Positions 3 through 9,100 of a stretch of DNA of 64,000 nucleotides are shown piece by piece (within the stretch, counting starts at the first letter, position 1; each line of letters begins with the position of its first letter). The DNA comes from Candidatus Bathyarchaeum sp. (GTDB lineage Archaea; Thermoproteota; Bathyarchaeia; Bathyarchaeales; Bathyarchaeaceae). Below the pieces are notes generated by a model. It was not told the DNA's origin. It saw nothing but the letters and a program-made list of their open reading frames with translations, and made no database searches. Location of the stretch: positions 404,256 to 468,255 of the forward strand of contig CP070820.1 in NCBI GenBank assembly GCA_020344315.1. Reading direction: 5' to 3'. Both the position numbers and the translations under genes were made by a program.

Positions 3-428
3 GTGGACATGTCCACCGTAAAAACACCGTGTGTTTACCCAATTCCAGAATTGAAAGCCAATACGGATAAACACCGTTTTGGCGACGTGTCTCTTGTAAA
101 ACTTAATCCAGAATCTTTCCGTGTTTTTCGTTGTGATATTATGGATTACTTGATGGGCGGGGATATAGTGCGGTTACTTTCACCTTTAACATCCATCTCT
201 GAGGACCCTAGATGCTTGGGGTATCCCATATCGCTGTATTTAGCTCATAATTTTGCCAAAGTGGATTCCGATGCAAAACTATTGCATCATCGAGATTTGG
301 TAGAAAAAGCGTTGGATGAGGAAGGCTTATTACATTTTCTCAAAATGGAAGAGTCACTTAGTAATTTTAGAAGTGACTTATATGGGCGGAAATATCCATG
401 GGAATTGGAGGAGCACAGGCTTGTCTGA
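3..428 (+). CDS. nurA: NurA nuclease, C-terminal part (5' end outside window)
   Basis: The frame is open from the window edge to a TGA at 426-428, so this is the last ~140 residues of a longer protein. The segment RCLGYPISLYLAHNFAKVD (about residues 70-88) resembles the closing region of NurA 5'-3' nucleases, where a GYP..L..AH pattern precedes the end of the domain. The stop overlaps the TTG start of the following HerA-like gene by 8 nt, the arrangement expected for a co-translated NurA-HerA pair. In archaea this pair resects DNA ends with Mre11-Rad50. The catalytic N-terminal aspartate is not in the window, so activity cannot be judged. The assignment rests on the C-terminal pattern plus the HerA neighbour. 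Confidence 0.72.
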   Translation: MDMSTVKTPCVYPIPELKANTDKHRFGDVSLVKLNPESFRVFRCDIMDYLMGGDIVRLLSPLTSISEDPRCLGYPISLYLAHNFAKVDSDAKLLHHRDLVEKALDEEGLLHFLKMEESLSNFRSDLYGRKYPWELEEHRLV

Positions 429-1983
429 ACCTGTAGGTTTTGTATGCGGAACTGAAGGAGATAAAATCTCCTTTTTTTTGAATAATAGGGTTAAACTTTC
501 TTTTGGGCAGATCGTCCGAATAGATTCGGGTGAAAGAGGTTTCTATGCGAGAGTGTTTAATGCCAAAAGTAGCTCTACCCTGAGGACAATTGAACAGCTC
601 CGTGAGGCTGAGGGTAAAGAGGCTTTTGGGCCCTATTCTAGCTTCCGAAGCGTTGAAGCTATTTTGTTTTTGGAAAAAATCGGGAATAGAGTTCACTCCC
701 CCACTTTTAATCCTAATTACCGAGACACCGTGCATACCGCCAGTAAGGAAGACTGTTCAGTTTTGAGGCTTGCGGGAGATTTGGAAATAGGTCATTTGCG
801 TTCAGGAGAAGAAATTCTAAGTGGGGTGGGCATAAGTGTTAAGGCTATCCCAAAAATGATGGGCATGTTTGGAATGACAGGGTCAGGAAAGACTAACACT
901 GAACTTATTCTCAACGCTCGTATTATTGACAGCAGTCCTAAAACTGTTGGTCTTATTTTCGATTTTGCTGGTCAGTTGCTGACAGGTAAAGATATAGGGT
1001 CTCATACTGGTCTACGGAATCATCCACTTTTTCACACGAAGATTCGTTACTACTCAGCCAGAGATGGCAAGTTGTGCATAGGTTTACATACGCTTACTCC
1101 TGGAAGATTGCGAACGATTTTCCCTGAAATCGGGAGGCCCCAAGTAAGAGTCGCCAGAAGATTATATGAGCAATTGGGCGGCTGTTGGATAGAGCAATCC
1201 CTCGAAACCTATAGTCTAGAAGGATATTCGGGTATTGGGAAAATTATCAACTACCAGCAAAGAAATGTGATTAACGCTCTGATGAGTAGACTTTCTGATC
1301 TTCCACAGCATCTCTTCCCACCTTCAAACTATAACTTCATTGATGATGTGGTCAAAAATATAAGCAAAGGAATCACCTGTCTCATTGATATATCAGGCTT
1401 AAATTCTGAAGAGCAGCTCAATGTCACCTGTCTAACCGCGACCAATGTTGCACGCCATTATAAACGATTGTGGGAAAGCAATTTCCAAGAGTGGGAAAAA
1501 CTTCCAACTCTTTTGATCACTCTTGAGGAGGCACATGAGTTTCTTAATCCCGAAATACGTAAAACCATCTTTTCTGACATTGCCCTCACATACCGAAAGT
1601 ATCGCGTCGGACTAAATGCCGTGACTCCAAGACCTTCCAAAATAAATCGTGACGTCTTCGCTGAGCTTTGGACCAAAGTTATTATGAAGACAGAATTGCG
1701 ACAAGATAGAGACTATCTCACCCAAAATACTCCTTACCTCGAATACAGTGACACCGAGATAAAGATGCTTGACATTGGTGAAGCGTTGCTCATTTCAGAA
1801 CCGCAGATTCGGTTTGCCGTTCCTATAAAGGTTATTCACTACCCTGACTATCTAAATGAACAGGGAAAAGCTGAGTATAATTTGCCGCCGTCAAAGCCTC
1901 TCTCTGAAATGGATGAAAAAATTAGACGAGTAAAGGCAGCAGGAAAATCTCTTGTGGCTGGAGAAAAATCTACGAAATCTTAG
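421..1983 (+). CDS. herA: HerA-type DNA translocase ATPase
   Basis: A 520-residue hexameric FtsK/HerA-superfamily ATPase, which pumps DNA into the NurA nuclease during double-strand-break resection. The start is taken as TTG 421. It follows a GGAGGAG stretch at about 405-411, and the residues after it (VGFVCG..GDKISFFLNN) look like the HAS-barrel that begins HerA. An in-frame ATG at 316 would place the start inside nurA. Walker A is GMTGSGKT at residues ~151-158; Walker B with the acidic pair is LLITLEEAHEF, with E369/E370. HerA normally has a DEAH-like box; here it reads EEAH. The C-terminal 30 residues are charged and probably disordered. The 3' end overlaps the convergent winged-helix gene by 14 nt. 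Confidence 0.9.
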   Translation: MSEPVGFVCGTEGDKISFFLNNRVKLSFGQIVRIDSGERGFYARVFNAKSSSTLRTIEQLREAEGKEAFGPYSSFRSVEAILFLEKIGNRVHSPTFNPNYRDTVHTASKEDCSVLRLAGDLEIGHLRSGEEILSGVGISVKAIPKMMGMFGMTGSGKTNTELILNARIIDSSPKTVGLIFDFAGQLLTGKDIGSHTGLRNHPLFHTKIRYYSARDGKLCIGLHTLTPGRLRTIFPEIGRPQVRVARRLYEQLGGCWIEQSLETYSLEGYSGIGKIINYQQRNVINALMSRLSDLPQHLFPPSNYNFIDDVVKNISKGITCLIDISGLNSEEQLNVTCLTATNVARHYKRLWESNFQEWEKLPTLLITLEEAHEFLNPEIRKTIFSDIALTYRKYRVGLNAVTPRPSKINRDVFAELWTKVIMKTELRQDRDYLTQNTPYLEYSDTEIKMLDIGEALLISEPQIRFAVPIKVIHYPDYLNEQGKAEYNLPPSKPLSEMDEKIRRVKAAGKSLVAGEKSTKS

Positions 1984-2683
1984 CTTCCCTTCGCTTCAAT
2001 ATCTTCTTCATTTCTTCCTTTAGTCGATAGACATAAGGCATCTTATGGGTGTCTCTCTCCAGATAGCCGTCTTTATAGAGTTTATTCATTAGGCGAGCAG
2101 TGTGCTCCCTGGTGAGTTTAATCTTTTCTCTGATCTCCGGCGCCGTTCTTTCCCCCTCTTTACCAATTGTCTCAAGAACCAGTAATTCGGTTTCAGTCAG
2201 TGGAGCCAAGGCCTTTTCCTTTCTTATAGGAATAGCAGCCTCTATCTTCGCTTCAGGAACATAACCTTCTTGCTTGAATTTCTCGATCTCATCAATCTTT
2301 TGCATCACTTTGTTTTGGGCCGCTTTTATGCCCTCAACTTCGTTTTTCATCTCCTTAAGCTGCCCAGAAATTTTCTCTTCAATCTGGGGAACATCCCCCA
2401 TCACGTTAGCAAGGTCCGTTAATCGGCTTTCATACTCTTCTAACTTCTTCGCAACTTGTTTGTTCTCCATTGCTGCGCCCTCAATTTTCTGAGCGATAGA
2501 ATGAACAACATTCTCTTGCCTCCGAAATTGGCTGTCAACACTCACAACGATATCATCTACAACTCCCCTTGCCCGCTCATACTCCTGGCGAAGCGTCCTT
2601 ATTCGGCGATAATAAAGAAACAGCGCTGAGATTGTACCAAGCAGCAAAACAGCTGTGACTAGAAAGAGAATATCTGAAATCAC
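1970..2683 (-). CDS. Membrane-tethered coiled-coil winged-helix protein
   Basis: This 237-residue protein has a three-part build. An N-terminal hydrophobic helix lies at residues ~3-25 (ILFLVTAVLLLGTISALFLYY). A long charged, heptad-rich stretch (~27-150) is likely coiled coil. A C-terminal winged helix (~165-230, LTETELLVLETIGKEGERTAPEIREKI..LTREHTARLMNKLYKDGYLERD) resembles MarR/TrmB-type DNA readers. It is probably a membrane-anchored transcription regulator; I do not recognise a named family. The start is GTG 2683. That codon lies inside one arm of an 11-bp inverted repeat, and five TGTGAT-type boxes fill the promoter, so autoregulation is a reasonable inference. It is convergent with herA, overlapping it by 14 nt. 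Confidence 0.75.
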   Translation of the reverse strand: MISDILFLVTAVLLLGTISALFLYYRRIRTLRQEYERARGVVDDIVVSVDSQFRRQENVVHSIAQKIEGAAMENKQVAKKLEEYESRLTDLANVMGDVPQIEEKISGQLKEMKNEVEGIKAAQNKVMQKIDEIEKFKQEGYVPEAKIEAAIPIRKEKALAPLTETELLVLETIGKEGERTAPEIREKIKLTREHTARLMNKLYKDGYLERDTHKMPYVYRLKEEMKKILKRREAKIS

Positions 2684-2817
2684 AAAAACGCCCCCGAAGT
2701 AACTGTGATTTCAGTGTGATCATATGTGATCTGCATGTGTGATCACATATCACAATAGTATATAAGTAAACTTAAGTCTTTTGTTAAACTGGGCTTCGTG
2801 ACATCACACGTCACAAC
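2674..2817 (-). promoter_or_regulatory. Promoter and TGTGAT operator array of the tethered regulator
   Basis: Read on the minus strand, a TATA-like CTTATATACT lies at 2766-2757, putting transcription start near 2735. Over and downstream of it are TGTGAT hexamers at 2704, 2715, 2725 and 2738 on the plus strand, plus an ATCACA at 2749-2754. The starts are 11, 10 and 13 bp apart, close to one helical turn. TGTGATCACA (2738-2747) is a perfect palindrome. CTGAAATCACA (2674-2684) and TGTGATTTCAG (2704-2714) form a perfect 11-bp inverted repeat around a 19-nt spacer and cover the GTG start. Another box pair, GTGACATCACACGTCACA, is at 2798-2815. Repressor binding is inferred from position and symmetry. 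Confidence 0.7.
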
Positions 2818-3069
2818 TTGTGTTGAGCAGATACTATGAGGATATCATGTAAACACACAAGTCCTTTATTGTTTTTCTCCCTTTGCTGTTTTCACCCTAT
2901 CCTTTGAAAAATCTAAAAAACGGTTTATTTAAAAAATAAAGCTGTAAAATCGCTTTAAATTGTGGGTAAGGATTCCTGCTTTTGGTACTCCGGTGCTGCC
3001 TCTTCCGTCCCGTCTTTTGTTTGCCTTGGGGTTGGTTTTTCTATTGAATCATAGCTGTGATTTGTGATG
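2818..3069. other. Intergenic, AT-rich, no gene seen
   Basis: No supported ORF or RNA lies here. The stretch around 2905-2955 is very A/T-rich, with poly-A and poly-T runs. Close to the 3' end of the next gene are TGTGAT at 3056-3061 and 3063-3068, followed by GTCACA (3069-3074), so a third box cluster overlaps the stop codon of the 161-aa gene. Confidence 0.5.
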
Positions 3070-3555
3070 TCACACCTTTCCCACAATGTTTCGTGGTTTG
3101 GAGAGTTCTTCTAGGCTCCTTTTTAGCTCTTCATGGAGGCGTGTCACCATCTTTATGTGTTCTTCTTTTGGTGTCTTTTTAGCAAGTTTTCGTTGAGTGT
3201 TTATATATGTTTTTAGCTTGTTTGCAGCCTCTATATACGGTTCTAAGCTTATTTCTTCGAGGATTCCCAAGTATCCGAGTAGAAGAATGGTATAGATTGA
3301 TTGGATGACGTTCCGTCTGGCTTGCCTGAGACTTCTATTAAAAGCGCCGCGACTTACGGCTAAAAGCCTTAATCTGGCTTTTTCGTCGTATTTTAATGAT
3401 TTATCGGATATATTTTCTGCTAAAATGTCTATTAATATCGTTTCTAGCTGTATTTTGGTTAAATTACTGTTTTTTGAGAGTATTTTTACCATCGGGTCAT
3501 TTAATGAATATTTTAGCCAATTTTGAGCTTTTTCCTTCAAGTAAAATTTCTCCAC
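3070..3555 (-). CDS. Orphan 161-aa helical protein
   Basis: I do not recognise a family. The protein is predicted to be mostly alpha-helical and basic. The central part (residues ~65-105) combines an arginine-rich segment (RGAFNRSLRQARRNVIQ) with a short hydrophobic stretch (SIYTILLLGYLGIL), and the last 50 residues are charged and helical. The start is GTG 3555; the alternatives are not better. It is flanked on both sides by TGTGAT/ATCACA clusters, one overlapping its stop codon (3056-3074) and one 390 bp upstream (3945-4020). That suggests it belongs with the tethered winged-helix gene. Codon use looks ordinary. A DNA- or RNA-binding role is possible from the basic helix but is not shown. 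Confidence 0.6.
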   Translation of the reverse strand: MEKFYLKEKAQNWLKYSLNDPMVKILSKNSNLTKIQLETILIDILAENISDKSLKYDEKARLRLLAVSRGAFNRSLRQARRNVIQSIYTILLLGYLGILEEISLEPYIEAANKLKTYINTQRKLAKKTPKEEHIKMVTRLHEELKRSLEELSKPRNIVGKV

Positions 3556-3944
3556 CCCAAAGCCCTGTTTAAAGGATACGTTTTTGTATACGGCACCCCC
3601 TGATACAAAAGTTTTACGGCACTCCCCCCGAAAACAGGCATATACAATTTAAATCCATCTACGTGCTAAAACAGCAAAACCTATGATTGAAACGACAATA
3701 ACTAAACTAAATTAAACAATAAATAAATTTTTTAGCCACTCAACAAAACAGACATCTACCTTACATTAAACTTTCACTAACTTTAATCTAGGAACTCCGC
3801 TCCCACAATTGAATTTGTTTAGAAACGTAAAATTTAGGAATATCTAGATTCTCCTCTAGAAATGGTAAAGCTTTCTTCCGAAGTTCAAATTATTGAACTT
3901 CATGCTGTTCCTCTAATTGTTTTTTAATCTCTATTTTGTGACCT
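3556..3944. other. Long intergenic region with a short direct repeat
   Basis: There is no credible gene in this roughly 390-nt stretch. Just upstream of the 161-aa gene is an imperfect direct repeat, TACGGCACCCCC at 3589-3600 and TACGGCACTCCCCCC at 3615-3629. On the minus strand it reads as two GTGCCGTA boxes 26 nt apart, placed where a promoter operator would sit. The remainder is AT-rich and unstructured by eye. Confidence 0.45.
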
Positions 3945-4020
3945 TGTGATTTGTGGTTTGTGTGATTTCTGATCACAGGAAGATCACGTGTGATTATCAC
4001 AACATCACGTGTGACGTCAC
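3945..4020. promoter_or_regulatory. Second large TGTGAT/ATCACA box cluster
   Basis: In 76 bp there is TGTGAT at 3945 and 3961, ATCACA at 3972-3977, ATCACGTGTGAT at 3983-3994, the perfect inverted repeat TGTGAT-T-ATCACA at 3989-4001, ATCACGTGTGAC at 4004-4015, and the perfect palindrome GTGACGTCAC at 4011-4020. The consensus matches the cluster at the promoter of the tethered winged-helix gene. It lies between the 3' end of nadE and the 161-aa gene, both on the minus strand, so it could serve a distal promoter of the latter or act as an architectural site. Confidence 0.6.
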
Positions 4021-6163: not shown

Positions 6164-9100
6164 ATGAGCAAAGAGTATAAGCAATATGCTGCAGTTTTAG
6201 AGAAAAGCCTTGAGAGCATATATGCTATCGCGAGAAAAGCTAGGGAAAAAGGACTAGACCCTGCCCTCGTTCCCGAGCCTGAAGTTGCGAAAGATTTAGC
6301 CGAACTAGTTGAGGGGCTCGTTGGGCCTTACGGGGTCGCTGAAGGCATACGAGATTTGAGTAAGAAGATGTCTCGAGAGGCGCTTGCCTTCAAAATTGCT
6401 GAGCAGATTGTTAAGGGAAAATTTGGGCATATGGACGCTCGTGAAGCAGCTGAACAGGCTATAAGAACGGCTCTTGCTATACTAACCGAAGGGATAACAG
6501 CAGCTCCGGTACAAGGTGTGGCTCGGATAGAAATCAAATCTAATCCTGATCGAACACGGTATCTGGCAATATATTATGCTGGTCCAATACGCTCGGCAGG
6601 TGGCACGGAACAAGCCTTAACGTTAGTGATAGGAGATTTTATTCGTCGTCTGCTCGGATTGGATCGTTATAAACCAACAGAAGAGGAGATTGCGCGTTTC
6701 ATAGAGGAAGTTCGGCTATTCGAACGGGCAGTAGCTAGGTTTCAGTATCATATCTCAGACGAAGAGTTGAGAAGAGCTATCCAACATATTCCGGTGGAGG
6801 TGACCGGCACCGAATCCGATCCTGTTGAGGTTTCGTCTTTCCGTAACCTTCCTCGAATTGAGACAAATCGTGTTAGAGGCGGGGCTATCAGAGTCGTAAA
6901 TGACGGGATTGTAGGGCGATCCGCGAAAGTATGGACAATCATCGAGAAACTCGAAATCGAAGGATGGGATTGGCTTAGAGAAATACGAGAAATCTCTCAA
7001 AAAAAGAATGCCGGATTTATGGCAGATGTAATCGCAGGTCGTCCAATTTTCTCGTTTCCGTCTAGAACCGGAGGTTTCAGGCTTCGCTACGGAAGAGCTA
7101 GGAACACGGGCCTCACTGCAGTCGGCATCCATCCCGCAACCATGATGGTTGTTCAAAATTTTCTCGCCGCGGGAACACAGCTTCGTTTAGAGGGACCTGG
7201 AAAAGCCGGTGTTGTCGTTCCTGTGGACACCATCGAACCACCTGTTGTGCGATTAAAAAATGGATTCGTTGTCCGTGTTACTCTTCAAAATTATAAGCAA
7301 ATTAAAAGGATGATTGACAAGATTCTGTTTCTTGGGGATATCCTCATAGGTTTCGGCGACTTTTTATATACAAACAAACCTCTCCGTCCGTCAGGCTTCA
7401 CCGAAGAATGGTGGCGTGAAGAGCTTCTGGCAGCCATTGAACAAAAATTTGATAGCAACCTAAAAGAAGCCGCCAAAGCCGGCAGTATATCTGTCTCACG
7501 TCTTGAAGCATTAGTAGCTGACCCATTCAAAAATAAGCCGAACGCCAAAGAAGCCATCGCCCTCTCCTCAACTTATAGGATTCCTCTTCATCCCTTCTTC
7601 ACCTTCTTCTGGTCAAATATTTCCCCTGAGGAGTTTGGAGCCTTAAGAGAGTGGTTATTGACCTCTAAAAGCCAAGTTGAAAATGCGATAGTCCAAGAGA
7701 TTGTTGGTGTGAAAGACAAAACGATAAAAGGTCTCCTTGAGAAACTCTGCATTCCCCATGAAGTCGTTGCAGGCAAGATAAAAATAAGAAACGAAGAGGC
7801 ACACATCTTCGGGTTCTGCCTCGGACTGCACGCCCCAAAAAGCCAGATAGACTCTTCAAAAAACGTCTTCGAGTCCATGCAGAAACTCACGGGTATTCCG
7901 ATTAGAAAAAAGGCTCCCAGCCTTCTGGGTGCCAGAATGGGGCGGCCAGAAAAGGCTAAGAGGCGAGAAATGAGGCCACTCGTGCACGCCCTCTTTCCTG
8001 TTGGACTTGCTGGAGGTTCCCGACGAAACTTGGCAGAGGCTGCAAATAAAGGTGCCATCGAAATTGATCTTGTGAGGCGTCGCTGTTTAGAGTGTAACGA
8101 ATTAACTTCCCTAATTAGATGTCCTCAATGTGGTTCCGAGACTCGTTTGGAGAAGTTTTGTCCCCAATGCGGGAGATGTTTAAAAGAAGATGTTTGTCCT
8201 GTCTGCAAGGTTTCAACGAGAAGCTACGAGAAACAACAAATTAACATAAGGGATTTGATGAATGCGGCTTGCAGAAAACTTCGCCTTCCTCACCTTAACC
8301 TTGTGAAAGGCATAAAAGGCTTAACAAATGAAACAAAGACAGCAGAGATTTTAGAAAAAGGGGTTCTGCGGGCGAAATACGGTCTATCAGTCTTCAAAGA
8401 CGGGACAATCCGCTTCGACGTTACGAATGCTCCCCTGACTCATTTTAAACCGAAAGAGATTGGCGTCTCCGTTGAGAAGCTCAGAAAGTATGGTTACCTA
8501 TATGACCATGAAGGAAAGAGTCTAACCGAACCTAAACAGATCTGTGAACTTAAGGTTCAGGACGTAGTCATCCCGAGGAAATGCGCCAAATATTTTGTTC
8601 GCGTTGCCAACTTTCTGGACGAGCTACTTGCGAAGGTGTACGAGCTTCCTCCATACTACAACGTTAAAAAAGTTGATGACCTAGTTGGACGTCTCGTTGT
8701 GGGTTTGGCACCTCATACTTCAGTTGGCATCATCGGAAGGATTATCGGTTTTACTCCCCTGAATGTTTGTTACGCTCATCCTTTGTGGCATTCGGCTAAG
8801 CGTAGGGATTGCGACGGCGACGAAGATACGTTGATGCTGGCTTTGGATACAATCTTGAATTTCTCCAAAGTCTATCTACCATCTCAGATAGGGGGGATAA
8901 TGGATGCCCCTATTCTGATTATTCCTTTGGTGAATCCGGTGGAAGTGCAGCGGCAAGCTCACGAAGTGGATGTTGCAGAAAAATATCCCGCCTTGTTTTA
9001 TGAAAAAACTTTGCAGAAAACAGGACCCAGAGAGTTAAGTGAGCTCATAGACCTTATTGAGCATCGATTGAACACTGCGGCGCAGTTTGAGGGCTTCAAG

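Follow-up and report, generated by a model that had tools for sequence, protein, structure and literature searches.

The locus and its genes

The stretch of DNA analysed here, referred to below as the window, comprises 64 kb of the 1.56-Mb single-contig genome of Candidatus Bathyarchaeum sp. (G000). It harbors two adjacent genes on the same strand, one encoding a membrane-anchored winged-helix regulator and the other a protein that we call the orphan, and these are accompanied by clusters of short TGTGAT/ATCACA boxes as well as by a HerA/CedD-like neighbour gene (Table 1). The neighbour is kept between the regulator and the origin recognition boxes (ORBs, see below) in most of the family.

Table 1. 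Features of the locus (window coordinates) and the separate origin of the same genome
Feature	Position	Strand	Basis or remark
HerA/CedD-like DUF87 ATPase, neighbour	316..1983	+	convergent with and overlapping the regulator
Regulator, 237 aa: membrane helix, coiled coil, MarR-like winged helix	1970..2683	-	Pfam, alignment, model
Box cluster 1 (E3), over the regulator start and the probable transcription start; contains TGTGATCACA and TGTGATATGTGAT (minus strand)	2674..2754	.	sequence, conserved in relatives
CTTAAG, conserved TATA-like element between E2 and E3, putative promoter	2771..2776	-	sequence
Element E2, TGTGACGTGTGATGTCACG on the minus strand	2797..2815	.	class-wide conservation
Element E1, TGTGATTTGTGATGTCACA, 3' end of the orphan gene	3056..3074	.	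kept at almost every Bathyarchaeia locus
Orphan protein, 161 aa, all-helical, predicted helix-turn-helix	3070..3555	-	conserved beside the regulator
Predicted orphan operator GTATACAAAAACGTATCC, imperfect palindrome directly upstream of the orphan	3574..3591	-	single genome copy
Box cluster 3, ~380-470 bp upstream of the orphan, intergenic in the window	3937..4020	.	conservation, synonymous-site constraint
ORB trio and cdc6 of G000	C1:1436983-1438788		partly in L053

By its score against the Pfam family MarR (PF01047; 28.6 bits, cut-off 24.6), the regulator is a MarR-type winged-helix protein. Its structural model (mean pLDDT 68; our models are of moderate to low confidence) shows a helix at residues 2-94, a further helix at 99-138 and a C-terminal winged helix. 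The membrane helix and the long coiled coil are kept across the regulators of the family, the hydrophobic N-terminus being present in 22/22 aligned orthologues, and the recognition helix (TREHTARLMKKL) is nearly invariant. The regulator is present in one copy in 24/27 family genomes; in these, which represent all 13 genera, orphan and regulator occur once per genome and are always adjacent. The membrane helix seems to be absent from the regulators of the loci L175, L181 and L187.

For the orphan, sequence searches of Pfam, NCBIfam and the PDB retrieved no relative, and no meaningful structural match was obtained with its all-helical model, which is of low confidence (mean pLDDT 66). The protein carries an invariant RGAFN motif, which we read as belonging to a putative helix-turn-helix, and it is present in 142/398 sampled genomes of the phylum. 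It is preceded by a palindrome, GTATACAAAAnYGTATCC, in 104/104 Bathyarchaeia loci, of which the genome contains no second copy within 2 mismatches. We predict that the orphan, too, binds DNA, and that this palindrome is the one operator belonging to it. The initial annotation had placed the orphan gene under the control of the TGTGAT boxes, and the presence of a different and unique palindrome at its promoter speaks against this. In one genome (G004; locus L057, oriented 6932-7399), the orphan reading frame contains an in-frame TAA near the N-terminus, and the gene there probably starts downstream of it.

A box array confined to a single locus

The hexamer TGTGAT was found on either strand at positions 2679, 2704, 2715, 2725, 2738, 2742, 2749, 2803, 3056, 3063, 3945, 3961, 3972, 3989 and 3996, i.e., 15 times within 1,347 bp, and 14 more times across the remaining ~62.6 kb of the window; TGTGAC boxes are found additionally at 2810, 3069, 3937 and 4010. 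This bears out the dense clusters that had been noticed in the initial annotation. With 29 TGTGAT in the whole window as compared to a shuffle expectation of 31.6, there is no overall excess, and since 15 of the 29 lie within 1,347 bp, the anomaly is one of clustering. The density at the locus is 11.1 per kb, and that in a 260-kb sample of the genome is 0.42 per kb; the richest other 1,347-bp stretch contains 5 boxes as compared to 15 here, such that no equally dense stretch exists elsewhere in this background. First-order Markov sequences modelled on the locus contained 0.8 boxes on average and 6 at most (2,000 simulations).

The paired forms of the box are even more restricted in their distribution. 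The palindrome GTGAYRTCACA has four matches in the genome, both strands taken together, and all of them are at the locus; the palindromes are as earlier described. TGTGATN{0,8}ATCACA has 3/5 of its genomic sites there, and TGTGAYNTGTGAY 3/4. In relatives, every copy of TGTGAYNTGTGAY is found at the corresponding locus in G007, G011, G017 and G024, as is one of the two copies in G016. This near-confinement of paired boxes and palindromes to one locus, which extends over six or seven genomes, argues for a single-locus system, and we therefore reject the notion of a regulon. The lone extra TGTGAYNTGTGAY of G000 lies at 177490-177502 inside an ORF for a MinD/ParA-like protein (177355-177894), and its presence there is probably due to chance.

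The perfect 11-bp inverted repeat that had been reported over the GTG start of the regulator is real (2674-2684 / 2704-2714), but the box over the start codon is not kept in relatives. The spacing of about one helical turn holds for the first cluster here (11, 10 and 13 bp), whereas the dominant spacing across the class is 7 bp.

Conservation of the boxes across Bathyarchaeia

Our wider comparison comprised 104 loci, namely the family set and eighty further Bathyarchaeia loci; some of the eighty stem from genomes of the family set, and the 104 are thus not all independent. In the alignment of the interval between orphan and regulator, hardly anything apart from the boxes is conserved, the spacer DNA having diverged. 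The eighty further loci share the same order of elements: E1 (consensus TGTGAYRTCACAaATCACA) at the orphan stop codon, E2 (TGTGAYnTGTGAYRTCA), a TATA-like TTAAA, and E3 (TGTGAYnTGTGAY...ATCACA). Among 93 loci, we counted 232 direct pairs of half-sites spaced 7 bp and 81 convergent pairs at 6 bp. The boxes thus are conserved upstream of orthologues of the regulator, a point on which the initial annotation had made its reading depend. They bracket the TATA-like element, with the arrangement E2-TTAAA-E3 intact, in 67/104 loci, which makes the proposed autoregulation of the tethered regulator plausible. Control of nadE, in contrast, which had also been considered, is rejected, because this gene is not consistently adjacent: it ends upstream of cluster 3 in the window, and in most relatives it lies 1.2-3.2 kb from the orphan or was not found in the sequence examined.

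The conservation also bears on the trivial explanation that the array is a chance cluster or a product of low-complexity sequence. While the unremarkable box count of the window as a whole would fit with this, the density far above background and the retention of position in about 100 loci, within spacer DNA that diverges, make it so improbable that we reject it.

Cluster 3 or a counterpart of it was found in 99/104 loci, and equal-sized control stretches reached its density in 0/98 and 0/92 cases. In many genera, this cluster sits within an aminotransferase ORF, on the opposite strand. Comparison of 27 non-redundant sequences of this aminotransferase showed that identical synonymous codons are in greatest excess exactly at the boxes (0.39 versus a mean of 0.08, window s.d. 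0.07), and 11 of the 12 windows with the best synonymous conservation fall at cluster 3 boxes. Furthermore, the boxes persist in lineages without an aminotransferase gene at this place, for instance in the genome of the window. Both observations indicate that it is the DNA, and not the protein, that is under selection there. Such selection on boxes inside a coding gene is unusual, and it adds, as does the origin linkage described below, to what the initial annotation had proposed.

The regulator as the likely binder of the boxes

The question which of the two proteins binds the boxes can be addressed in more distant Thermoproteota, where the orphan occurs with or without the regulator. In a sample of 40 such loci, enrichment of the boxes around the orphan reaches twofold or more in 21/22 loci with the regulator, but in only 4/18 without it (Mann-Whitney p = 6e-6, uncorrected for relatedness). 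Because the boxes co-occur with the regulator and its near-invariant recognition helix fits a conserved site, the regulator is the likely binder of the TGTGAY boxes, and the binding proposed in the initial annotation gains support from this pattern. One could argue that the orphan binds them instead, since it is better conserved than the regulator, is located inside the array and is a predicted helix-turn-helix protein. However, loci that have the orphan but not the regulator mostly lack the boxes as well, and the orphan promoter has a unique palindrome of its own, such that we disfavour this assignment and consider it improbable.

Proximity to the replication origin

In 75 of the 77 Bathyarchaeia loci with enough flanking sequence, at least two ORBs are found 1.1-4.7 kb past the orphan, and cdc6 lies within the examined flank in 66 of the 77. 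Where there are three ORBs, their order is +-+ in 61/64 loci. The ORB position matrix was built from ORBs seen in a few of these loci, which makes the result partly circular for those few and leaves it independent for the rest; at the same threshold, 260 kb of background contained none. The ORBs and the initiator gene adjoin the box array in the relatives and are not inside it. Also in distant lineages, the pair is found near genes for Orc1/Cdc6 and PolD, whose domains were confirmed.

The window itself departs from this picture. At 17 bits it contains no ORBs, and the idea that it holds an origin is therefore not borne out; GC skew, calculated from 13 samples, was uninformative. In G000, the ORB trio instead lies beside cdc6 at 1,437 kb, ~527 kb from the boxes round the circle, and the boxes have stayed with orphan and regulator, away from the trio. 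The separation may reflect either a rearrangement or an assembly error. A second Orc1/Cdc6 gene of this genome (C1:98188-98460; L054) has no recognisable ORBs in the examined flank.

Two further settings of the orphan were encountered in the phylum. In the family f39, which has neither regulator nor boxes, it stands beside a ParA ATPase in six loci (L192:7149-7985, L193, L194, L196:8458-9384, L198 and L186). The operon order there is ParA-family ATPase, a small gene of no recognised family and then the orphan, and ParB_N proteins are encoded nearby in L192 and L194. No ParA-like gene was found beside the pair in the Bathyarchaeia loci examined; MinD/ParA-like genes occur elsewhere in G000. In the families f24 and f28, the pair is arranged as a compact operon of these two genes, the boxes are few, and replication genes are absent from the surroundings. 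Some of the corresponding loci (L182-L185, L210, L211) have palindromic boxes upstream of the orphan.

A possible anchoring or centromere-like function

We propose, with a probability of about 0.45, that the array carries a self-regulated, membrane-anchored nucleoprotein complex linked to the origin, with an anchoring or centromere-like role. The winged-helix domain of the membrane-anchored protein would bind the TGTGAY boxes, such that a number of dimers, occupying the direct (7 bp) and convergent (6 bp) half-sites of three or four clusters, would build a single nucleoprotein complex across about 1.3 kb. From the clusters E2 and E3, which flank the promoter, the regulator would repress its own gene, and the complex would hold the origin-linked region at the membrane, which might serve chromosome segregation or the positioning of the origin. 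A job beyond self-control seems most likely to us because there is one site per genome, because some clusters are remote from any promoter or intragenic, and because oriC normally lies 1-5 kb away. It is for the same reasons (the single locus, the remote clusters, the intragenic selection and the origin linkage), and also because the regulator has a membrane helix and the orphan of f39 a neighbouring ParA ATPase, that we favour anchoring over autoregulation alone. In a more far-reaching and more tentative version, this would be an ancient system, centromere-like or membrane-anchoring, that is located close to the origin in many Thermoproteota, spanning Bathyarchaeia, Nitrososphaeria-like and other lineages, in which a tethered winged helix would act on TGTGAY heptads without a dedicated ParA partner.

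Several observations argue against an anchoring role. The operon forms of f24 and f28 have few boxes and lack replication genes in their vicinity, the membrane helix seems to have been lost in a few lineages, and the association with ParA is confined to a family that has neither regulator nor boxes. The origin linkage alone is weak evidence of function, because gene order near archaeal origins is kept anyway, and the distance between the array and ORBs plus cdc6 in G000 implies that a close linkage is not indispensable. The main rival, and a serious one that we nonetheless regard as somewhat doubtful, is that the boxes are the regulator's operators and nothing else, that distant clusters act by looping, that the origin linkage reflects gene order, and that the regulator possibly senses something at the membrane. 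That E2 and E3 bracket a conserved TATA-like element fits well with such local autoregulation, as do the tendency of the boxes to precede the orphan in families whose operon has the regulator in second place and the persistence of the pair without replication genes (f24, f28) or away from the origin (G000); one-target self-regulators do exist. It is harder to reconcile with cluster 3, which is found 0.4-0.7 kb upstream of the orphan and is selected inside a foreign coding sequence, and with the number of about 20 boxes, which far exceeds the needs of an operator. Moreover, a regulator that has only its own sites in the whole genome would need another purpose. The proximity of an ORB trio and cdc6 in nearly all Bathyarchaeia loci, and of Orc1/Cdc6 and PolD subunit genes in distant lineages, might alternatively mean that the box complex acts on the nearby origin, repressing it or setting its timing, possibly together with Orc1/Cdc6. 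We consider such a control of replication initiation unlikely, since in G000 no paired boxes went along with the ORB trio and cdc6 to their position ~527 kb away.

Comparison to known systems

The anchoring model invites comparison to the SegAB system of Sulfolobales. The sites of SegB, an archaea-specific DNA-binding protein (PMC12284271, PMC5120986), are grouped close to segAB and oriC1, and most of them lie within genes (PMC12284271), which resembles the situation described here. However, dozens of dispersed TCTAGASTCTAGA sites are bound by SegB, which has the ParA-like SegA as its partner, whereas the array here occupies one locus, has another motif, goes with another DNA-binding fold that carries a membrane helix, and has no ParA gene beside the pair in Bathyarchaeia. 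The orphan itself has no match in Pfam or NCBIfam. AspA of the plasmid pNOB8 is a winged-helix protein that binds a palindrome adjacent to the gene encoding it and, as a centromere complex, spreads along the DNA (PMC5120986). The likeness lies in the winged helix and in the palindromic site next to the own gene, but AspA is plasmid-borne, recognises a single 23-bp palindrome and has ParB and ParA as partners, while in our case the half-sites are short and numerous, the locus is chromosomal and the protein has a membrane anchor.

As to the sites, a parallel is provided by Omega and parS from pSM19035, where 7-bp WATCACW repeats in direct and inverted orientation overlap promoters (PMC9499535). 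Both the ATCAC core and the 7-bp step recur in our array. This likeness is one of sites only, since Omega is a ribbon-helix-helix protein that acts with a ParA (delta), whereas the regulator here is a winged-helix protein. More generally, the Walker-type ParA operon partner of ParABS systems is missing from the Bathyarchaeia loci. By the tests made, the system is a member of none of SegAB, AspA or omega/parS. With respect to the archaeal oriC, canonical ORBs and cdc6 are found 1-5 kb away in most Bathyarchaeia loci, but the boxes are not ORBs and do not follow them to a separate origin, and ORBs beside an initiator gene are seen in relatives, not at the locus of the window. The half-site TGTGA/TCACA is further reminiscent of CRP/FNR (TGTGA-N6-TCACA). 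This reading is rejected by the box spacing, the convergent boxes here being 6 bp apart from start to start as opposed to 11, and by domain content, as a Pfam scan of the regulator gave no match to a cyclic-nucleotide-binding family.

Searches of the open-licence literature turned up no paper that describes the pair or the boxes. Beyond a few model groups, we know of no account of how archaea place and separate their chromosomes. A review from 2016 counts among the open questions what archaeal centromeres are and where they lie (PMC5120986). Our finding points to a defined DNA array, to two proteins and to a place close to the origin, which are conserved throughout a large class of uncultured archaea and in part over a phylum to which culturable ammonia oxidisers appear to belong, and this makes the question of chromosome placement and separation directly testable. 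The array may represent an unrecognised means to control or anchor the origin-proximal region of the chromosome; should its function be self-regulation only, it would still be a strikingly conserved control element with a single target.

Lastly, a conserved gene of ~130 aa with a weak penicillinase-repressor-like match adjoins the pair in many distant lineages (L189:2871-3272, L190:9449-9844, L173:6833-7249, and others).
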